Below are positions 17,240 through 26,019 of a stretch of DNA of 64,000 bases, piece after piece. Both the position numbers and the translations under genes were made by a program. The DNA lies in the NCBI GenBank assembly GCA_018823025.1, contig JAHJJI010000139.1, positions 1-64,000 of the forward strand, written 5' to 3'. Source of the DNA: Gammaproteobacteria bacterium (GTDB lineage: Bacteria > Pseudomonadota > Gammaproteobacteria > Burkholderiales > Sulfuricellaceae). The notes beneath the pieces are model-generated. The model searched no databases. It had not been told where the DNA came from and was given only the letters and a program-made list of their open reading frames with translations. Within the stretch, counting starts at the first letter, position 1, and each line of letters opens with the position of its first letter.

Positions 17240-17808
17240 GCAAAGCGTTTACCCGCGAGAACGACGATGCGGAAGAGGAAGAGATCGAACCGGCGCAGCA
17301 ACTCCCGCTGGGGCTGAAGAACTACATCACCCCGACGGGATATCAGCGCCTCAAGGACGAATTCGATCAGCTATGGAAGATCGAGCGTCCGGCGCTGGTA
17401 AAAACCATCACCTGGGCCGCCTCCAATGGCGACCGATCGGAAAACGGCGATTACATCTACGGCAAGAAGCGGCTGCGCGAGATCGACCGTCGCATCCGTT
17501 TTCTCTCCAAACGCCTCGACAACGCCGAGGTAGTCGACCCAGGTGAGCGCGAGGAATGCGACCAAGTGTTTTTCGGCGCCACCGTGACGGTGTGCGGTCA
17601 GGATGGAGAGGGGCACACCTACAGCATCGTCGGCGTGGACGAGGCCGATGCCGGACGGGGCATGATCAGCTGGGTTTCGCCACTGGCGCGGGCGTTGCTC
17701 AAGGCGCGCGAGGGCGACACGGTGACGTTGCGTACTCCAGGTGGGGTGGATGAGATGGAAATCCTTGAGGTGCGCTACGTGACGTTGAATACGAATTTGG
17801 CTGCCTAG
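17236..17808 (+). CDS. greB: Transcription elongation factor GreB
   Basis: A 190-residue GreA/GreB-family factor. It binds the secondary channel of RNA polymerase and promotes cleavage of backtracked transcripts. The coiled-coil domain contains ITPTGYQRLKDEFDQLW and the acidic tip ASNGDRSENGDYIYGKKRLREID. The C-terminal FKBP-like domain ends ISWVSPLARALLKAREGD. Compared with the about 160 residues usual for GreB it has an acidic N-terminal extension (DDAEEEEIEPAQQ) of about 30 residues. Confidence 0.9.
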   Translation: MSKAFTRENDDAEEEEIEPAQQLPLGLKNYITPTGYQRLKDEFDQLWKIERPALVKTITWAASNGDRSENGDYIYGKKRLREIDRRIRFLSKRLDNAEVVDPGEREECDQVFFGATVTVCGQDGEGHTYSIVGVDEADAGRGMISWVSPLARALLKAREGDTVTLRTPGGVDEMEILEVRYVTLNTNLAA

Positions 17809-18115
17809 GGAAATACTGGGCAAGTCCAATGTAATCTTTTGCCTGTTTCCCAATATCGTCGGGTTTTCTAACACGAATCTGACCGCAACTAGGCAGAACA
17901 TGTGATCACACCTGCGCGCCTGGAGGCTGAAAATGTCGCCATTGGTTTTAACATAAAATGCGTTCTCTGGGTCGTCAATACTAAGTATATAAAATTAAAT
18001 ATATTTAGAATCAATGAACTATATTAATATTTGTTGGTTTTTCTCAGCCTATCCAGGATGTCTTCCGTATGAAACCGTCGAGGGGACGGTGTTGTGAAAT
18101 ATTGCCCCTTCCATG

Positions 18116-18133
18116 GTGTCGGTTATTTTTACG
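18116..18133 (+). promoter_or_regulatory. GTGTCG box 1 (predicted enhancer-protein site)
   Basis: GTGTCG-N7-TTACG, about 80 bp upstream of the -24 element of the first PEP-CTERM gene. It has the same spacing as four other copies found only between 18 and 26 kb. The position fits a sigma-54 enhancer-binding regulator; PrsR is the natural candidate for PEP-CTERM genes, but no such gene is in this window. Confidence 0.55.
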
Positions 18134-18196
18134 TTTGGCACGTACCTAGGCGGTTATGTTGTTGTAACTATATGGTTTATATTAATAATTATTTTG

Positions 18197-18212
18197 TGGT
18201 ATGCCATTTGCT
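18197..18212 (+). promoter_or_regulatory. Sigma-54 (-24/-12) promoter, first PEP-CTERM gene
   Basis: TGGTATGCCATTTGCT matches the consensus TGGCACG-N4-TTGCW, with GG and GC correctly 12 bp apart. The predicted start is near 18223, giving a leader of about 55 nt before the ATG at 18279. Confidence 0.65.
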
Positions 18213-18278
18213 CTTATTGCAGATAAGAGGATCCACATCTCTTAACACGATAATGCAAGCGTGAAAGGAGTAATTAAA

Positions 18279-19250
18279 ATGAGACCAATTTCCATGAAAC
18301 ATATAGTGAAATCAGGGCTGTTGCTGTTCGGTGCGGGGGTAGCAGCGACTGCTTCTGCCGGGTACTTTGAGTTCTCATCCTATGGGGGTTCGGGTTCAGA
18401 GTATGACGTCGCATCCTATGGCAACACCGTTTACTGGGGCGGTCCCACGTCTATCTATTCGATTGATGTGGCCGTGGCCGACTTGAGTAAGAAGGAAGAG
18501 CCGAGGTTTCTTGCTGATGGTGTAACACTGAACCCCAATTACCAGACCCGGATTTTTACCAACCCGCAATCGATAAGCCTCACTGGGTCTCCCTTGTCGC
18601 TACAAGGCCTTAGCACGGGCGAGATGTACGTGAATGCCACCACTCTCTTCCGTCCGGCGAACAACAACAGCATCATGGCCTTTGACAAGGTTACGGGTGC
18701 CTATGATGCGAGCCAGACCCACTTCTACGCCTCAGGGCTTCCGGGTACCGGTTGGGGAATTGGTGCGACGTTTCTTTCCTACGGGGGTGGCAAGTGGTGG
18801 AGCGCCAATGAGAGCCGTAATACCTACAGCTCGACAGACGGCAGTAACTGGGTTTACGAGTTCACCTGGAACGCAACGCCGGGCGGCTCGCACGGCGATG
18901 GGCTGGAGTACGTAAACGGCTTCCTGTTCGTCTCGGATATGACCTCCAATTACATCGAGCAGTGGGGGCAAGGCGATAACCCTGCCACTCCTGGCGTGGA
19001 AACCGGATGGAACGAGTGGACCCGCTTTGACTACGCGGAGATCTTTGGCAGCGCCAAGGATGTGGAAGGGATGGGCTTCGGGGCGCTCGGCCATTTCTGG
19101 GCAGGTAGCGGAAGCGTTATCTATGAACTGGGCGGGGGTACCATTCAGGGGCAAATCGATCCGACCATTCCTGAGCCTGCCACGCTGCTTCTGCTTGCCG
19201 GAGGCTTGCTGGGCATGGGTGCTTCGCGCAAGTTTATGAAAAAGACATAA
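18279..19250 (+). CDS. PEP-CTERM exported protein
   Basis: A 323-residue protein with a Sec signal peptide (hydrophobic core GLLLFGAGVAATASA) and a C-terminal PEP-CTERM sorting domain: IPEPATL, a hydrophobic stretch, then SRKFMKK. PEP-CTERM proteins are processed by exosortase, often in exopolysaccharide-producing bacteria. The body is rich in Gly, Ser, Tyr, Trp and Asn with repeated aromatic patches (YGGSGSEYDVASYG, YGGGKWWSANES), perhaps a beta-propeller-like domain, but I recognise no family. The ATG at 18279 has AAAGGAG upstream; the GTG at 18261 overlaps that site and is rejected. No exosortase is present in this window. Confidence 0.88.
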   Translation: MRPISMKHIVKSGLLLFGAGVAATASAGYFEFSSYGGSGSEYDVASYGNTVYWGGPTSIYSIDVAVADLSKKEEPRFLADGVTLNPNYQTRIFTNPQSISLTGSPLSLQGLSTGEMYVNATTLFRPANNNSIMAFDKVTGAYDASQTHFYASGLPGTGWGIGATFLSYGGGKWWSANESRNTYSSTDGSNWVYEFTWNATPGGSHGDGLEYVNGFLFVSDMTSNYIEQWGQGDNPATPGVETGWNEWTRFDYAEIFGSAKDVEGMGFGALGHFWAGSGSVIYELGGGTIQGQIDPTIPEPATLLLLAGGLLGMGASRKFMKKT

Positions 19251-19271
19251 TATTTATGAGAACGCCGAATG

Positions 19272-19305
19272 AAACCCCTGCCTTGTGATCACAAGGCAGG
19301 GGTTT
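19272..19305 (+). terminator. Rho-independent terminator after the first PEP-CTERM gene
   Basis: Inverted repeat with arms AACCCCTGCCTTGTG and CACAAGGCAGGGGTT, followed by TTGTTT. It begins 22 bp past the stop codon. The arms are flanked by A-rich and T-rich runs, so it may work in both directions. Confidence 0.85.
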
Positions 19306-19396
19306 TGTTTATACAAGTCATTAGTCAGATATTTTCTAGTCCACCCAACAGGAAAGGCAAAAAAAACAAGTCCCAACTTTATAGATTTGAGCTTGA

Positions 19397-19414
19397 GTGT
19401 CGGGATTTTTTACG
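19397..19414 (+). promoter_or_regulatory. GTGTCG box 2
   Basis: GTGTCG-N7-TTACG, an exact match to the pattern. No good -24/-12 promoter follows within the next 500 bp, so it may act at a distance on the promoter at 19952 or be a relic. Confidence 0.45.
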
Positions 19415-19532
19415 GTTTCTCTGAGTGTGTTTCATGGCGCATGGTTATAAGGCGTGGTTAAAATAGTTGATACATTGTAATTACAGGGCAATATTTTTAT
19501 TGTTTTATGGGCATGGGTGATGTGTTATCTAT

Positions 19533-19550
19533 GTGTCGGCGCGACTGACG
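19533..19550 (+). promoter_or_regulatory. GTGTCG box 3, degenerate
   Basis: GTGTCG-N7-TGACG, one mismatch in the second half-site. It lies between box 2 and box 4, on the same strand. Confidence 0.3.
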
Positions 19551-19848
19551 CATTTGTCAGGCGTTGACCAGCGCATGAGCGTACATGTCTTAGGCCAAGT
19601 AACAGAAATGCATGGATCTCGGATGTGATGGTATACGCTCTGGACTCGGTTGCAATTGGTCTGTTGTAATGTCGGGACTTAGTTACATGCCGGATTGCCG
19701 GCGATCCGATATCTATCTTGTACGATGATCCAGATACGACTACATTTAAATTAATTAGCCGCGAATGTAAGGCATGGCCATGAACTCAGTGCCCTTTCGC
19801 CCAATCCGTCTCACCTTATTTGGACGACTTCTTTCCAAAAATAGGTGG

Positions 19849-19866
19849 GTGTCGGAAAAGTTTACA
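19849..19866 (+). promoter_or_regulatory. GTGTCG box 4
   Basis: GTGTCG-N7-TTACA. With the next base it forms GTGT-N11-ACAC, the most symmetric copy. It is about 100 bp upstream of the -24 element of the cysteine-rich protein gene, a usual distance for a sigma-54 activator. Confidence 0.55.
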
Positions 19867-19951
19867 CTGATTGAGGTATGATGCAAAATACGGAATCAAG
19901 CGTATACCTAATGCACTGATTATTTGGGTGATATGAGGTTACGTAGAGAAA

Positions 19952-19967
19952 TGGTACGAATTTTGCT
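19952..19967 (+). promoter_or_regulatory. Sigma-54 (-24/-12) promoter of the HPr-rel-A-type cassette
   Basis: TGGTACGAATTTTGCT has the correct GG-to-GC spacing and matches TGGCACG-N4-TTGCW at all but one of the fixed positions. The predicted start is near 19978. Confidence 0.7.
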
Positions 19968-20072
19968 AATATATTGAATAATTAGTACAATATTTACTCA
20001 TATCATGACTCATAGGCATACATGGCAAAGTACGCGGGGTTAGGAAGTGACCTTGATCAAGGAGAGTACGTC

Positions 20073-20768
20073 ATGACCACAAAAGAACATTCAAATGGCA
20101 AGATGGCAGATCAAAACCTGCCCCAAGATGCCACCTCTCCAGCGCAATCTGTTGATGAATCGCGCAGGCGCTTTGGCAAATCGGGGTTAGCCGCAGGAGG
20201 GGTGATTATTACCCTCGCCAGTCGGCCGGTGCTGGGCGCGTGGGCATGTCAGTCGCCGTCCGGTTTCCAGTCCGGCAATGTCAGCTCGCATGGGCAGCCC
20301 ACATTATGTGAAGGTCGTACGCCAGGTTACTGGCAAGCCAAAAAAGATTGGCCAAGTCCGTATGCGACAGGAACATGCACCAACAAAAAAAATATCTCGT
20401 CGAATAATCCTGTGGACTGGATAGGAGGAACCCCTTTTAGCGGGACCTTCAATTGCGGCGGAAATGGTGCTATTTATCAGAGTGCTTGCCTGCCAGTCAA
20501 GGACGCGCCCTGCAAACCGACGAACCCACTTTCGCTTATGCAGATACTTCTAATGGGCGGCAAGGACGACCGTTACCAGTTGGGCGCACACATCACCGCA
20601 GCGATCCTGAATGCAAAAAGGGGCTGGACGAGCCCCGTGCTGACAGAACAGGCCGTGAAAGCCATGTTTAACGAATGGGCTACTAAAGGCTATTTTGAGC
20701 CGAGCGCCGGCGTAAAGTGGTCAGGCGAGGATATCGTAACCTATTTGAAAACCACGATGACGCTTTGA
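20073..20768 (+). CDS. Exported six-cysteine protein with RR leader
   Basis: A 231-residue protein I cannot assign to a named family. A 30-residue polar leader is followed by RRRFGKSG (31-38) and a hydrophobic segment ending near LGAWA, resembling a twin-arginine signal. The mature part has six cysteines (59, 79, 102, 128, 139, 147) and the motif EGRTPGYWQ (80-88), related to the TPGYWKNH-type motif of other surface proteins. The C-terminal 80 residues are helical with no cysteine. The ATG at 20073 has AAGGAGA upstream; the frame is open from 20022. It heads a cassette with PqqD-like, HprK-like and nucleotidyltransferase genes, and could be the substrate of those enzymes (inference). Confidence 0.7.
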   Translation: MTTKEHSNGKMADQNLPQDATSPAQSVDESRRRFGKSGLAAGGVIITLASRPVLGAWACQSPSGFQSGNVSSHGQPTLCEGRTPGYWQAKKDWPSPYATGTCTNKKNISSNNPVDWIGGTPFSGTFNCGGNGAIYQSACLPVKDAPCKPTNPLSLMQILLMGGKDDRYQLGAHITAAILNAKRGWTSPVLTEQAVKAMFNEWATKGYFEPSAGVKWSGEDIVTYLKTTMTL

Positions 20769-20830
20769 CATATTCCTGAACTACTCCCCTTCGCAGAGAC
20801 ACCAGCGGTCGGCCCGTATTAAAATACTGA

Positions 20831-21121
20831 ATGCGCTTAAATCAGAAGTGGCAAGTAGCTGCCGAAAACGAACTGCTTTACCATTCCTGGGACGATGAGT
20901 TCGTCGTTTACAACGGCGCTACGGGAGATACTCATCTGCTCGGCCTGGTTGCGGCACAGGTGCTACTGAAATTGCAGCAAGCGCCTGCGGATACAGTAAG
21001 CCTGGCCGAATGGATTGCACCATTGCAGCAAATCGAGCCGGATGATGAGTTCGTATTTTTCATAGAACAAATTCTTACGGATTTCGATAGCCTTGGCATA
21101 ATCGAACATACTCAACTTTGA
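20831..21121 (+). CDS. PqqD-like protein of the HPr-rel-A system
   Basis: A 96-residue protein with the winged-helix fold of PqqD, the peptide-binding RRE element of many RiPP pathways. Visible features are the beta strands WQVAAENELLYHSWDDEFVVYNGATGDTH, the helix LGLVAAQVLLKLQQ, and the terminal helix FIEQILTDFDSLGIIE. The TIGRFAM description of a PqqD family protein of the HPr-rel-A system fits it, because the next gene is an HprK-related kinase. It probably binds a leader or partner protein. Its stop overlaps the TTG start of the kinase. Confidence 0.78.
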   Translation: MRLNQKWQVAAENELLYHSWDDEFVVYNGATGDTHLLGLVAAQVLLKLQQAPADTVSLAEWIAPLQQIEPDDEFVFFIEQILTDFDSLGIIEHTQL

Positions 21122-22032
21122 ATGTTTCTGCGTTAACACCCCCGGAGCTTTTTTCCCGGCTCAAAGAAGCGGGGTTATTTCTCCAGGCCGGCCCCTTCAT
21201 TACGCATATGCAAACCTCGATCCGCAGTGTGGCGGAGGGCATCGGTCTGCTCTATGCGGACTACCCGCTGGCTGAAGATACCGGCTTTGCGGATTTCCAC
21301 GTCCACCTCATCCCACCGGCAAACTTGCGGCGCTGGTTTCGCCCCCAGGTTCTGTTTTCTTTCGACGGTCGAATTCCCTTCAAGCCATTGCCGTTGGACC
21401 AAGCCTTCCCGATGCTCGAATGGGGAATGAACTGGTGCGTATCGGGGCATTCACATCAATATCTCATCCTGCACGCAGCGGTTATGGAAAAACAGGGTGG
21501 CGCCGTGATCATGCCGGCTCCGCCGGGCGCCGGAAAAAGTACCTTGTGCGCTGCTTTAATCAACCGTGGGTGGCGCCTGCTCTCTGATGAACTCGCCCTG
21601 ATCAATAAAGCGAGCGGGGCGCTCGTTCCGTTGTGTCGCCCCGTGAGCCTCAAGAACGAATCCATACACGTGATCCGGAGATTTGAGCCGTGCGCGGTAC
21701 TGAGCCGCGAGGTGCGCGACACGATGAAAGGCACGGTCGCGCACATGAAGCCGCCCGCCGGGAGCGTCACGCAAAGCCACGTAAGTGCTCGGCCTGCCTG
21801 GATTGTTTTCCCCAAGTACCAACCCGGAGCGGTCACGCGCCTGGAACCGCAACCCAAAGCCCGCGCTTTTATGCGCATGGTGGAGAGCGCATTTAACTAT
21901 AGCCAGCTTGGCCCTCAGGGTTTTCAAATGATGGAAAACCTGGTCGACGCGTGCGATTGCTATGAATTCACCTACAGCAACCTCGATGAAGCGGTCGCTG
22001 TCTTTGCCGACCTGAAGCTCCCCGTCCGATGA
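21118..22032 (+). CDS. HprK-related kinase A
   Basis: A 304-residue protein resembling the kinase domain of HPr kinase/phosphorylase. It has a P-loop PAPPGAGKST (133-142) and a following LLSDELALI (154-162) similar to the HprK DD motif. The N-terminal about 110 residues are not HprK-like. No HPr gene is nearby, so the phosphate acceptor is unknown. TTG at 21118 is the only start upstream of the conserved region that keeps the frame, and it overlaps the previous stop. Its own stop overlaps the next gene's ATG. Belongs to the TIGR04352-type family by my reading; no search was run. Confidence 0.8.
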   Translation: MNVSALTPPELFSRLKEAGLFLQAGPFITHMQTSIRSVAEGIGLLYADYPLAEDTGFADFHVHLIPPANLRRWFRPQVLFSFDGRIPFKPLPLDQAFPMLEWGMNWCVSGHSHQYLILHAAVMEKQGGAVIMPAPPGAGKSTLCAALINRGWRLLSDELALINKASGALVPLCRPVSLKNESIHVIRRFEPCAVLSREVRDTMKGTVAHMKPPAGSVTQSHVSARPAWIVFPKYQPGAVTRLEPQPKARAFMRMVESAFNYSQLGPQGFQMMENLVDACDCYEFTYSNLDEAVAVFADLKLPVR

Positions 22033-23108
22033 AGGCCGCCCACAACCTGGTGGCACAAGTGCTGCGGCACCCAGAAAGCGCTGTATCGCTGAGCCTCGCC
22101 GAGTGGGATCTGCTGATACGCCAGGCAAGGCATGCCGATTTACTGGCGCGCATCTACGCCCTGCTCGATGATCAAGGCCTGATCGACAGTATTCCGGCCA
22201 AGCCCTGCGCACACCTGGAATCAGCAGACACCGTGGTCAAACGACATGCTCAAGCGATACGGCGGGAAGTTCTCTGTCTTCGTAAGGCGCTGGCAACCAT
22301 CGACCTTCCAGTCATCCTGCTCAAGGGCGCAGCCTACCTCATGGCTGACCTGCCGCCGGCGAGGGGGCGCATTTTTTCAGATGTGGATATCCTCGTTCCC
22401 AAAGGCCAACTCAATCAGGCAGAGGCTGCGCTGCGCCTCCATGGCTGGGCCAGTAGCCATCACGATGCCTACGACCAGCGCTATTACCGGATCTGGATGC
22501 ACGAACTGCCGCCCATGATGCACCTTAAGCGCCAAAGCGTACTGGACGTGCACCACAATATCCTGCCGGAAAGCGCACGCGTTCATCCGGACCCCGTTAA
22601 ATTAATTGAAGCTGCCGTGCCGGTTGGGGAAGATCAGTCCGTTAAAGTGTTAGCGCCGGTAGATATGGTGCTACATAGCGCCACCCATTTGTTTCATGAA
22701 GGTGAGCTGGAACACGGGTTGCGCGACCTTGCCGACCTGAATAGCCTGCTGCGGCACTTCGGCGATTCGCCGTCATTCTGGTCGACTCTGGAGAGTCGAG
22801 CGCAGGAACTGGAGCTCACTCGCCCGCTTTTTTATGCGCTGCATTATGCCAATCTGGTACTTGGCACGCCCATCCCCGAATCTGTCTTTATAAATCAGAC
22901 AGTGTCCAAGCCATCTTGGCTATTGGTAGCCATCATGGACGCGCTTTATGGTCGCGCGCTCGCCCCAGTCCACCCGAGTTGTTCCGACTGGCTGACTGGC
23001 ACCGCCCGCTGGCTGCTCTATGTACGCGCACACTGGCTGCGCATGTCGCCTTGGCTGCTTGTTCACCACCTGTTCCACAAAGCTTTCCTGTCGCAAAAAA
23101 GCTCGTAA
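22029..23108 (+). CDS. Nucleotidyltransferase-family protein (NTP_transf_5-like)
   Basis: A 359-residue protein with the nucleotidyltransferase core LLKGAAYL...IFSDVDILV (97-123). The KG and the DVD metal-binding triad fit the PF14907 type of uncharacterised nucleotidyltransferase. A conserved HSATHLFHEGELEHGLRDLADL region follows. Substrate unknown; in this setting it may modify the exported protein or another cassette product. ATGA overlap with the kinase shows co-translation. The last codons and stop lie within a 222-bp sequence that is duplicated at 25.8 kb, so the natural C-terminus may have been replaced. Confidence 0.78.
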   Translation: MKAAHNLVAQVLRHPESAVSLSLAEWDLLIRQARHADLLARIYALLDDQGLIDSIPAKPCAHLESADTVVKRHAQAIRREVLCLRKALATIDLPVILLKGAAYLMADLPPARGRIFSDVDILVPKGQLNQAEAALRLHGWASSHHDAYDQRYYRIWMHELPPMMHLKRQSVLDVHHNILPESARVHPDPVKLIEAAVPVGEDQSVKVLAPVDMVLHSATHLFHEGELEHGLRDLADLNSLLRHFGDSPSFWSTLESRAQELELTRPLFYALHYANLVLGTPIPESVFINQTVSKPSWLLVAIMDALYGRALAPVHPSCSDWLTGTARWLLYVRAHWLRMSPWLLVHHLFHKAFLSQKSS

Positions 23109-23310
23109 GGCCCAATCTGGGCGGGGTGTCAAGAAGCGAAGTGTATTTGCGCACGGAACAACGGCGAACGACGGGGTCAGCACAATTATGTGGCGCTGAG
23201 CTTGAACTGCTCGGCGTTATATTGCCGATCGTCTGATCGAGGAAATCAATCAGCTCATCGGCGTGGTGCTCTGCCTCGCGGGAAGAGTCGTGGTCGCCGG
23301 CCAGGATCAG
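23089..23310. repeat. Direct repeat copy 1 (partial hydrolase 3' end)
   Basis: About 222 bp that match 25797-26019 in the same orientation with scattered substitutions and small indels. Both copies contain TGATCGAGGAAATCAATCA and end with CCAGGATCAG. In copy 2 the sequence includes the end of the alpha/beta hydrolase gene (minus strand), so copy 1 is a non-functional fragment of that gene plus its downstream flank. Confidence 0.85.
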
Positions 23311-23430
23311 AAAAGAATGGCGCCAGACAATAATCGTGTCTGAGAATCATCTGGCCGGCCTCCCACCGCGACCTGCGGTGGAGTAAAAAGTAAGGTGCGA
23401 ACTTTATTTTTACTCATGAAGGAGGCCGAA

Positions 23431-24191
23431 ATGAGATTCTGTGGCATAGACCTGCATTCCAACAATAGCGTAGTAGTAATTTCTGACGAAATGGACAAGA
23501 TACTCGCCAGTCGGCGTTGCCCGAACGACCTGAGAAAAATACTTGCGATGCTTGAGCCGCACCACGCCGAACTGGCCGGAGTGGTCATGGAATCCACCTG
23601 CAACTGGTACTGGCTGGTCGATGACCTGAAGGCTGCGGTCTACGAGGTCAAGCTGGCCAACACCGTTGCCATGAAGCGCTACGACGGACTCAAGCACAGT
23701 GATGACGAGGATGATGCCGCGCATCTGGCACACCTGCTACGGTTTGACATCCTGCCACGGGGTATATTCACCCGCCGACCGAATGGGCGCTATTCGATCT
23801 CGCCCGAAAGCGCATCCAGCTCGGGCGCTCGCGTACCCAACATGTGCTGGCGATTGTGATCATGCTGGAGACAGGCGACATCACACGTTTTGTCCGGGTT
23901 GGCAACTTCTCCTCCTACACAAGATGCGTGGATAGCGCCCGCTACTCCAACGGCAAGAAAAATGGCGAGGGCAATACTAAGAATGGCAATACCTACCTGT
24001 TGTGGGCATTCATCGAAGCGGCCAACTTTGCCCGGCGCTTCAACGCCGAGGCCAAACGCTTCTTCGAGAAGAGGAAAGAAAAAACGAACGGCGTGGTCGC
24101 CACCAAGGTGCTGGCACAAAAACTGGCGCGGGCGAGCTACCACATCCTGAAGGAGAAGCAGCCATTTGATGTAACGCGCTGTTTCGCCTGA
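23431..24191 (+). pseudogene. IS110-family transposase, frameshifted and internally deleted
   Basis: The start (GGAGG before the ATG at 23431) and N-terminal part MRFCGIDLHSNN...VMESTCNWYWLVD...RYDGLKHSDDEDDAAHLAHLLR are the DEDD domain of IS110 transposases. A one-base deletion near 23762 shifts the frame: the expected GYIHPPTEW continues in the next frame, through FDLARKRIQLGRSRTQHVLAI. That run then joins directly to IMLETGDITRF...CRCV-like sequence and the C-terminal serine-active domain (NGKKNGEGNTKNGNTYLLWAF...). About 100 middle residues are missing. Element ends were not identified. Confidence 0.85.
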
Positions 24192-24529
24192 AACGGTTAA
24201 AGTTGGCGACAGGTAAGCCAGTATAGGGGTCTGGACGCGAGCCAGCGAGTCTGAGTGGAGACTTGTCTGCCACCGTCTGCGTTGTAATCCGGGTCGTCTG
24301 CCGGGTGAGCCGGTTGGGGATTGGACGTGCAATGCACGAGCCACGGTTTCTGTGATCTTTAACCGGACACTTCGGCGGCACCAACGTTTCTCTGGGGCGG
24401 CTTACCGCCAGGGCGGCAACAGAATATCGGACACCGCTTGATCCATATGGGTGGCTGGCACGACTCGGTCGTAGCCAATAATGAGGAAACGGATTCGACC
24501 GGTTAAAACCAGGTCTGCAAAAAAGAAAA

Positions 24530-24554
24530 CCCTGCTGTCAAAAAAACAGCAGGG
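24530..24554 (-). terminator. Second terminator downstream of the minus-strand PEP-CTERM gene
   Basis: Arms CCCTGCTGT and ACAGCAGGG with an A-rich loop. On the minus strand the stem is followed by TTTTCTTTTTT. Confidence 0.65.
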
Positions 24555-24642
24555 AAAGTTGGGTTTCGCCCTTGACACGGGGCCGGCTAATGGGTGACCC
24601 CATTCCACATTCCATATTTGCGCTGACCTGAAAAGTGAGTGT

Positions 24643-24675
24643 AAAAAAAGCCGACGCATTGCGTCGGCTTTTTTT
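24643..24675 (-). terminator. Terminator of the minus-strand PEP-CTERM gene (bidirectional)
   Basis: Perfect arms AGCCGACGC and GCGTCGGCT with a three-base loop, flanked by seven A on one side and seven T on the other, so it can work on either strand. It is 16 bp past the PEP-CTERM stop codon. Confidence 0.88.
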
Positions 24676-24690
24676 GGTGCGATGAAGCAA

Positions 24691-25422
24691 TCAGACCGTT
24701 TTACGGCGGCGCATGGCGGCGAGGCCAGCCAGGCCAATCCCAAGCAGAGCCAGGGAAGCGGGCTCGGGAACGCCAGGCAGGCTGCCCTGTTGGAGCAGGG
24801 CGTACTTGACTTGCCCCCCCGCGACCAAGTACTCGCCCGAACCATTGCCCCAGAACTGGATTTTTGTGAATGTGCTCGAGTCGTCGAAGGCGGCGACGAA
24901 GATTTCAGTCACAAGAGCGCCGGCATTGTTCGGGAACAGTCCTTGGTTATAGTTCGCCGCAGACGCCACCAAGATGGGCGTGCCGTCGTTGAACGAGATG
25001 AACAGATCCGTTGTCGGATTGAAGCAGCATGTCGCCCAGTCACCGACCTCGAACCCGAAGGAGTTCACCGCGGTGTTAAACTGGAATGTGATGCCGCTGG
25101 CGATGGTGCCATTCTGTCCGGGAAAAGAGCCGTCGGGACTGATGTCGATAACTTGGCCGGACATCGTGCCATAGGTGGTCGGGAAGAAAGAGCCAGCGTT
25201 GTTCATCGTGACCGTGTAATCCGTCCGGACGAGGCTGGAGCCAGACGACAATCCAGTCCACGTGTCCGTAACGACCGTGCCTCCGGCGTTTGTCACGGTG
25301 GTGTTAAACGACGCCGAGCCGGCGGGGATGCCGTCGAACACGGTCAGGATGGTGGCGCTGGCGCTTGCTGCCATAAACAAGGCCGATGCGGCGAGAGCGT
25401 TGACTAGCGCGGTTTTTTTCAT
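24691..25422 (-). CDS. PEP-CTERM exported protein
   Basis: A 243-residue protein with a Sec signal peptide (MKKTALVNALAASALFMAASASA) and a textbook C-terminal PEP-CTERM domain (VPEPASLALLG, hydrophobic helix, MRRRK). The body is Ser/Thr/Asn/Gly-rich with FEVGDWATCCFNPTTDLFISF and FVAAFDDSSTFTKIQFWG. This resembles the extracellular domains of many PEP-CTERM proteins predicted to be jelly-roll-like. It is driven by a sigma-54-type promoter at 25557-25572 and ended by two terminators. Surface or EPS-matrix role inferred from family. Confidence 0.9.
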   Translation of the reverse strand: MKKTALVNALAASALFMAASASATILTVFDGIPAGSASFNTTVTNAGGTVVTDTWTGLSSGSSLVRTDYTVTMNNAGSFFPTTYGTMSGQVIDISPDGSFPGQNGTIASGITFQFNTAVNSFGFEVGDWATCCFNPTTDLFISFNDGTPILVASAANYNQGLFPNNAGALVTEIFVAAFDDSSTFTKIQFWGNGSGEYLVAGGQVKYALLQQGSLPGVPEPASLALLGIGLAGLAAMRRRKTV

Positions 25423-25556
25423 GATACGGCTCCTTGGTTTTTGGTTTAAAGGGGTATCCGTATAAGGAGGACCCCGACACTGAACAAAATATAAACGGGG
25501 CAGACTCGATTTCTATGTTTCCCTAATTGCTATTAATCTGCTCTCACCAATCATTA

Positions 25557-25572
25557 AGCATTACTCATGCCA
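25557..25572 (-). promoter_or_regulatory. Sigma-54 (-24/-12) promoter, second PEP-CTERM gene
   Basis: Read on the minus strand, TGGCATGAGTAATGCT, with GG and GC exactly 12 bp apart. The predicted start is near 25546, giving a leader of about 120 nt to the ATG at 25422. Confidence 0.62.
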
Positions 25573-25669
25573 GCAGAGAACATAAAAATAAAATCAAATA
25601 TAAATTCAGCATGTTAAATGTTATCGGTGTGGGCGGCAGCAGCTCGTCTGGAAAGTTTCAAAGCGAGAT

Positions 25670-25687
25670 TGTAAGAATTAACGACAC
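25670..25687 (-). promoter_or_regulatory. GTGTCG box 5
   Basis: On the minus strand GTGTCG-N7-TTACA, about 100 bp upstream of the -24 element of the second PEP-CTERM gene. Pattern, orientation and distance agree with boxes 1 and 4. Confidence 0.55.
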
Positions 25688-25796
25688 TTAAATGTGATAC
25701 TTCGGGCTTATCAATAACTCCGCCACCATCCCCACAATACTCGCCAGAAACCACGCAAACTGCAGCGTATAAATGGGGTCAGACCCTCATGGCACT

Positions 25797-26019
25797 TGTC
25801 GAAAAAACGCTTGTAAGGCCCAATCTGGGCAGGGTGCCAAGAAGTGAAGCGTATTGCGCACGGAACAACGGCGAACGACGGGGTCAGCACAATTTAGGTG
25901 GCGCTGAGCTTGAACTACTCGGCGTTTTTCTGGCCAATTGCCTGATCGAGGAAATCAATCAACTCATCTGCGTGGCGCTCGGCCTCGCGAGAAGAGTCGT
26001 GGTCGCCAGCCAGGATCAG
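25797..26019. repeat. Direct repeat copy 2 (contains hydrolase 3' end)
   Basis: Matches 23089-23310 in the same orientation. It covers the last about 35 codons of the alpha/beta hydrolase and about 115 bp beyond. This is the parental copy because the coding frame is intact here. Confidence 0.85.

Follow-up and report, generated by a model that had tools for sequence, protein, structure and literature searches.

What does a short DNA box that recurs in front of sigma-54 promoters control, and which protein would bind it? The question is raised by a 64,000-nucleotide stretch of a Sulfuricellaceae genome (Gammaproteobacteria bacterium, assembly GCA_018823025.1, contig JAHJJI010000139.1, positions 1 to 64,000; this whole stretch is referred to here as the window). 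An earlier note on this DNA had listed five copies of a box, GTGTCG-N7-TTACR, had paired three of them with -24/-12 promoters of two PEP-CTERM genes and a gene cassette, and had proposed a single enhancer-binding regulator, with PrsR as the candidate. Our analysis makes it very probable that PrsR and sigma-54 switch on PEP-CTERM proteins together with a surface protein that would be exported by the twin-arginine translocation (Tat) pathway and is probably modified.

Four exact copies of GTGTCG-N7-TTACR lie within the 64-kb window, against a mean of 0.03 and a maximum of 1 in 400 windows simulated with matching dinucleotide composition, and three of them are followed, in the same orientation, by a sigma-54 site of the form GG-N10-GC in a TGGCAC/TTGC context. 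On the plus strand, the box at 18116 to 18133 (core 17-mer 18117-18133; 22.7 bits) stands before the promoter at 18197 to 18212 (TGGTATGCCATTTGCT) of a PEP-CTERM gene of 323 amino acids (18279 to 19250; TIGR02595/PF07589), with a gap of 63 nt, measured here and below from the end of the box to the TGG of the sigma-54 site. The box at 19849 to 19866 (plus strand; 25.1 bits), a dyad of the form GTGT-N11-ACAC that is also found in two relatives, precedes the cassette promoter at 19952 to 19967 (TGGTACGAATTTTGCT) with a gap of 85 nt. On the minus strand, the box at 25670 to 25687 (20.5 bits) and the promoter at 25557 to 25572 (TGGCATGAGTAATGCT, read from 25572), 97 nt apart, serve a second PEP-CTERM gene, of 243 amino acids (24691 to 25422; TIGR02595). 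The three promoters match 10, 11, and 10 of 12 consensus positions, respectively. The combination of a box of at least 15 bits and a sigma-54 site of at least 9/12 located 40 to 109 nt behind it occurs three times in the window and in 0 of the 400 simulated windows. The fourth exact copy, a distal box at 19397 to 19414 (plus strand), is strong on the position matrix and is also found in Sulfuricella sp. T08, the nearest named relative among the best 80 of 194 kinase relatives; no sigma-54 site of at least 8/12 lies 40 to 109 nt behind it. The fifth copy listed earlier, at 19533 (GTGTCGGCGCGACTGACG), scores below 8 bits on the matrix and is rejected as a box. The 3' ends of the window copies read TTTACR or CTTACA.

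Judged by its sequence, the window box is the published PEP-CTERM box and not a new element. The text of Haft et al. (2006; PMC1569441) describes, from Proteobacteria, a motif 1 of 17 nt that ends in TTTACA, is sometimes repeated, and is followed by a sigma-54 motif at a mean distance of 62.8 nt (s.d. 10.6, range 32 to 92); the motif pair preceded 99 of 167 PEP-CTERM genes, and PrsR was predicted to be the protein that binds motif 1. Compared with this text description, rather than with the published logo, the window box agrees in length, ending, and occasional repetition, in the -24/-12 promoter about 63 nt downstream, in the PEP-CTERM genes that follow, and in the presence of PrsK/PrsR in the genome. 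Of its gaps of 63, 85, and 97 nt, the first two fall within the range given there and the last is 5 nt over the maximum. It differs in that an HPr-rel-A cassette is named here as one recurrent class of target. In Aquincola, pepA is reported to be RpoN dependent, with a predicted enhancer sequence upstream of the mapped RpoN promoter (PMC9850573). What was already known thus covers the box, its promoter, and the candidacy of PrsR; the HPr-rel-A cassette as a member of the regulon and its Tat-type first gene were not found in the literature searched, although an earlier mention is possible.

The consensus of 73 aligned boxes from HPr-rel-A cassettes is TGTCGRAAWTTTTTACA, with the best dyad center giving TGT-N11-ACA. 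The core is a 17-mer, TGTCG-N6-TTTACA; the preceding base is G in only 27 of the 73, so that the leading G of the pattern first noted, GTGTCG, is not conserved. The upstream activator sequence of NifA, a sigma-54 activator of the Fis type, is TGT-N10-ACA. Both are short TGT...ACA dyads of such an activator, the PEP-CTERM box being one base longer and carrying a conserved CG beside its left TGT.

Throughout the genome to which the window belongs (3.35 Mb in 145 contigs), the exact pattern occurs 11 times and its reversal twice. Seven of the 11 lie outside the window: three of these have, at 50 to 100 nt, a sigma-54 match of at least 9/12, one has such a match at 186 nt, and three have weak sites or none. 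Of the 17 PEP-CTERM genes over cut-off, 8 have the box and sigma-54 pair within the upstream DNA taken (at most 1.5 kb per gene), against 0 of 51 controls. The genome-wide checks that had been proposed for the box are thus mostly favorable: it is tied to PEP-CTERM genes, although three of the seven outside copies lack a good sigma-54 site.

The same genome encodes one RpoN over cut-off and two PrsR proteins over cut-off, each with one PrsK over cut-off beside it, on contigs C80 (L012) and C31 (L013). On C31, a PEP-CTERM gene with its own box lies about 2.7 kb from prsR, and a tetratricopeptide repeat frame resembles PrsT (TIGR02917, 119.6 bits, under the cut-off of 312.2; no genome-wide search was aimed at PrsT). 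In a sample of 250 genomes of the order, a strict pattern of box plus promoter gave 92 matches in 49 genomes, and the reversed pattern, used as control, 11 matches in 10. PrsR exceeds its cut-off in 58 of the 250, and strict pair and PrsR occur together in 39 (Fisher P = 4e-22, shared ancestry ignored); the control pattern shows no such association (PrsR in 4 of its 10 genomes, P = 0.25). A first composite pattern, with the -24/-12 spacing off by one base and a slightly different box, serves as a rough wrong-spacing control and gave 7 matches in 6 of the 250 genomes, against 5 reversed controls and none in the window's own genome. When 30 of the 92 pair loci were inspected, the next frame ended in a PEP-CTERM-like sequence, judged by pattern, in 16 and was the Tat gene of a cassette in 4. 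PrsR is what the earlier note and, in the text cited above, Haft et al. both name, and its co-occurrence with the box across genomes supports the prediction that it is the protein binding the box.

The middle promoter of the window precedes four genes that, by content, are an HPr-rel-A cassette and not a PEP-CTERM gene. All on the plus strand, these encode a 231-amino-acid protein of no known family with a Tat-type (RR) signal and a core, here the candidate substrate (20073 to 20768); a PqqD-like peptide chaperone of the HPr-rel-A system (20831 to 21121; TIGR04353); HprK-related kinase A (21118 to 22032; TIGR04352, 418 bits); and a nucleotidyltransferase of the NTP_transf_5 family (22029 to 23108; PF14907). 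The last three stand side by side as in HPr-rel-A of NCBIfam (TIGR04352, TIGR04353), whose defining set we took from family names and neighborhood and not from a publication; the window cassette adds to it the Tat-type first gene, of no library family, and the promoter with its PEP-CTERM box. No literature naming HPr-rel-A or HprK-related kinase was found, subscription papers and the NCBIfam source text lying outside that search; one paper (PMC3023750) mentions PqqD and PEP-CTERM, each a single time. The TIGR04352 kinase is present in 40 of the 250 order genomes, 36 of which have PrsR, and the nucleotidyltransferase follows in all of 117 cassettes.

For the wider comparison of cassettes, the position matrix was built from 67 of the 92 order pairs. 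The five pairs of the window's own genome and those before HPr-rel-A cassettes were left out on purpose, and other rows by eye as chance-like or near-duplicate. Cassettes of named genomes were the best 80 of 194 kinase relatives, ranked by likeness to the window kinase, so that the rates hold for near relatives; with three duplicates and three that were too short upstream dropped, 74 were used. Among these, which include Massilia, Thiobacillus, Candidatus Nitrotoga, Rhodoferax, and some Gammaproteobacteria such as Thioalkalivibrio, 48 have the pair upstream, against 0, 0, and 1 of 74 on three control strands. Over the 114 cassettes with at least 1 kb of upstream DNA, the pair is found in 76 (controls, 1/342), and all 76 fall among the 106 whose first gene is of the Tat type. 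This last count comes from a hidden Markov model built from the Tat genes that a stricter hand rule had found in 62 of 117 cassettes.

Eight cassettes have no Tat gene in first place, and seven of them carry one downstream of the kinase with the pair before it. A profile search of six such genomes located the gene in five, each time on the contig of the cassette (G005, a weak match, G088, G129, G167, and G201), with the pair directly before it at gaps of 63, 51, 51, 51, and 51 nt, respectively, and the pair of L210 has a gap of 63 nt. In L217, two Tat-type genes stand in a row 2.0 to 3.5 kb downstream of the start of the kinase, and only the second has the pair, at 51 nt. Of 24 controls, 0 have a pair. 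With 51 nt five times and 63 nt twice, all seven gaps fall on the ladder described next. Across the cassettes compared, then, the pair, where there is one, goes with the Tat gene wherever in the cassette that gene stands.

The spacing of box and promoter is not continuous. Gaps of the 92 order pairs cluster at about 52, 63, 74, 85, and 97 nt with few between, and their periodicity (R = 0.72) was reached by 0 of 2,000 uniform and 0 of 2,000 jittered null sets. This ladder was first noticed by eye on the 92 pairs and then tested on them; the 48 cassette gaps and the 135 pairs described below test it on other data. When reduced to 75 distinct family-gap pairs, the order set still gives R = 0.69 (0 of 5,000 nulls), with a bootstrap period of 11.05 to 11.6 bp. 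The 48 cassette gaps, with the phase fixed beforehand from the order set, give a V-test u of 4.7, and 29 of the 48 lie within 2 nt of the peaks where about 21 are expected. A class-wide search of 369 genomes found the pair in 79, with no control match seen in the printed table; three genomes of the window's own order were dropped, and the matches listed cover 53 of the 76 others. The 135 pairs from those 53 genomes give u = 11.7, with 111 within 2 nt of the peaks where 59 are expected, and a best period of 11.1 (range 10.85 to 11.35). Gaps of 101 to 161 nt are nearly absent, with only 5 matches in the 58 PrsR genomes and 2 in controls, so the pair is short-range.

Helical repeats in vivo, as fitted from LacR looping data in the text of PMC1762422, are 10.95 to 11.60 bp. 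Steps that amount to whole turns suggest that selection keeps the site on one helix face, and their natural cause would be contact between PrsR and the polymerase across short DNA: where the gap is only some 50 to 100 bp, the site would have to lie on a set face, and functional gaps would follow in steps of about 11 bp. The text of Haft et al. gives a single mean of 62.8 nt with its s.d. of 10.6, in contrast to the discrete steps seen here. Quantized spacing was not found in the literature searched, and an earlier mention in subscription papers is possible. The ladder provides a base-level rule for PrsR promoters that sharpens genome-wide prediction of the regulon, and it constitutes a natural data set on the phasing of short enhancer-promoter DNA in cells.

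A single mechanism would join what the sequences themselves display, namely the box-promoter pairs, the gap ladder, the joint occurrence with PrsR, the repeated association with HPr-rel-A cassettes, and the pair before downstream Tat genes. The kinase PrsK would control the response regulator PrsR, which would bind the 17-bp dyad (TGT-N11-ACA) and, from there, contact sigma-54 RNA polymerase at the -24/-12 promoter. The regulon within the window would then consist of two PEP-CTERM proteins and one HPr-rel-A cassette. The first cassette gene would yield a Tat-exported surface protein, probably modified in the cytoplasm before export by the PqqD-like protein, the HprK-like kinase, and the nucleotidyltransferase. 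This protein would be made alongside the PEP-CTERM proteins during assembly of the exopolysaccharide matrix, of which it is a candidate component. A cassette that is uncharacterized and occurs in 40 of the 250 order genomes thereby gains a link to a known regulon as well as a candidate substrate, and its function becomes testable.

As for the Tat protein, a Tat signal consists of an S/T-R-R-x-F-L-K-like motif and a hydrophobic stretch. The 106 Tat-type proteins have an RR(R/K)(F/L) leader with such a stretch; the twin-arginine position reads RR in 102 and RK in the other 4, a result that is in part built in because R[RK] was used to find the leader, and F or L stands at +4 in 81. In 651 of 700 random pairs, similarity is higher in the leader than in the core (one protein, L233, having no leader, was dropped), a test that somewhat favors the leader, given its narrow composition. 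The 26 members that were aligned, chosen for a recognizable core, all keep residues Ser63 and Ser67 of the window protein. The loose form of this serine motif is present in 86 of the 106 proteins, and some subfamilies thus lack it. The core, approximately residues 81 to 230, is modeled with high confidence, and the whole model has a predicted template modeling score (pTM) of 0.70. Export, and a role as substrate of the cassette enzymes, are what these features make the protein a candidate for. Positions 74 to 183 of the Tat profile also match inside two very long frames, L246 (G088:C22) and L244 (G067:C65), of 2,888 and 1,597 amino acids, and the core domain may therefore occur in giant surface proteins.

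A more specific proposal can be put forward tentatively, and we regard it as somewhat less probable than its contrary. The cassette would be a PrsR-controlled modification system of the exopolysaccharide matrix in which a leader-binding protein of the PqqD type, the HprK-like kinase, and the nucleotidyltransferase phosphorylate and then decorate conserved serines, with Ser63 and Ser67 as candidates. The Tat-type protein would fold in the cytoplasm and leave the cell along with the PEP-CTERM proteins. If true, a route like that of ribosomally synthesized and post-translationally modified peptides (RiPPs), in which the export leader is well conserved and the core changes fast, would be applied to a folded surface protein. 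A close parallel is lasso-peptide tailoring, in which, as far as the cited text describes it, a kinase modifies a C-terminal Ser and PsmN adds hexoses (PadeK/ThcoK, PsmK/PsmN; PMC9266682). Both pair a kinase and a nucleotidyltransferase with a ribosomal precursor, which in the cassettes is a Tat-type protein, mostly of 140 to 250 amino acids. In 17 aligned cassette kinases, one His, one Lys, and one Asp are invariant, which establishes three of the four residues of the His-Lys-Asp-Asp motif given for the lasso kinases. By this analogy the cassette may work like lasso-peptide tailoring without being a member. Assignment as a lasso peptide or classical RiPP is itself rejected: the precursor has 231 amino acids, and no lasso peptidase or cyclase family matches the genes at 20073 to 23108.

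Several observations weigh against joint control by PrsR of PEP-CTERM genes and a modified Tat protein. Ten of the 49 box genomes have no PrsR over cut-off, and 19 of the 58 PrsR genomes have no strict pair; G005 has the pair and only lower-scoring PrsR-like proteins. In 10 of the 30 inspected pair loci, the next frame is something else or nothing convincing. The pair is missing from 30 cassettes that have the Tat gene, including those of the methane oxidizers Methylomonas and Methylobacter, so that another regulator can serve the cassette, and cassette G210 lacks both Tat gene and pair. Best-fit periods differ between the sets, at 11.4 (order pairs), 10.7 (48 cassettes), and 11.1 (135 pairs). 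On the side of modification, the PqqD-like protein was found in only 73 of 117 cassettes (by single-sequence tblastn), and the kinase is weakly similar by sequence to HPr kinase structures (1jb1, E = 8.5e-4). Fold search, Pfam, and NCBIfam give the Tat protein no function and, in the two libraries, no family: no NCBIfam model matches it at E 0.01, and a search of PDB structures with its model gave a best Foldseek E value of 3.8 and, over 92 chains, only Z values below 2.

A different enhancer-binding protein of this class could bind the box instead, or two PrsR paralogues could divide the targets between them. The two PrsR proteins of the window's genome, together with further related response regulators encoded there, lend this some weight, as do the ten box genomes just mentioned and G005, in which box and cassette occur without PrsR over cut-off. 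Those ten and two further cassette genomes were re-examined at a lower threshold of E 1e-100; PrsR exceeds its cut-off in none of the 12, and ten have lower-scoring relatives. Among the four cassette genomes without PrsR over cut-off, G092 has a PrsR match over positions 1 to 272 of 445 only, G137, with no PrsR relative even at E 1e-100, is a 90% complete draft, and G115 lacks the box too. Set against the strong tie of the box pattern to PrsR genomes reported above, a different or divided regulator seems improbable to us, and PrsR itself remains the preferred candidate.

Less probable still, and decidedly unlikely, is that the cassette has its box merely by location in, or origin from, an exopolysaccharide locus, with no functional tie to the modification enzymes. 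By eye, we did count at least 13 of the 40 cassette genomes in which kinase and PrsR share a contig and are no more than about 10 kb apart. In the window's own genome, however, both PrsR genes are on contigs other than that of the cassette. Of the 74 further cassettes, which come from many genera, 48 have the pair before the Tat gene, and so do seven of the eight in which that gene is not first. That the pairs are chance products of A+T-rich intergenic DNA beside sigma-54-like sequences is the least probable alternative: one box-like stretch, at 24640, did turn out to be a terminator hairpin, and weak sigma-54 matches are as frequent in shuffles as in real DNA, but the simulated windows, the control rates of 0/51, 1/342, and 0/24, and the table of the class-wide search, in which no control match was seen, make it very unlikely, and base composition does not explain the gap ladder.

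The terminator just mentioned is that of the minus-strand PEP-CTERM gene, at 24640 to 24675 (minus strand), an intrinsic hairpin of the form GCCGACGC-AAT-GCGTCGGC. Its right arm, together with the T run, looks like a box (GCGTCGGCTTTTTTTACA), and such terminators can mislead box scans; the stretch at 24640 to 24657 was rejected as a box because it overlaps this hairpin. Alignment with relatives, read by eye, places a box-like relic at 19670 to 19687 (plus strand), which is one base too long in the window; relative G243 keeps an intact 17-mer there, and the relic is perhaps a decaying extra site. An Rfam scan of 17500 to 26000 gave no match. Between the cassette and the second PEP-CTERM gene sits a remnant of an IS110-family transposase (23395 to 24191, plus strand), in two overlapping frames (PF01548, PF02371) and apparently broken. 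Frames at about 23050 to 23240 and 25790 to 25930 are alike and on the same strand (MLTPSFAVVPCA...), which suggests that a direct repeat encloses the segment carrying the IS110 remnant and the PEP-CTERM gene.

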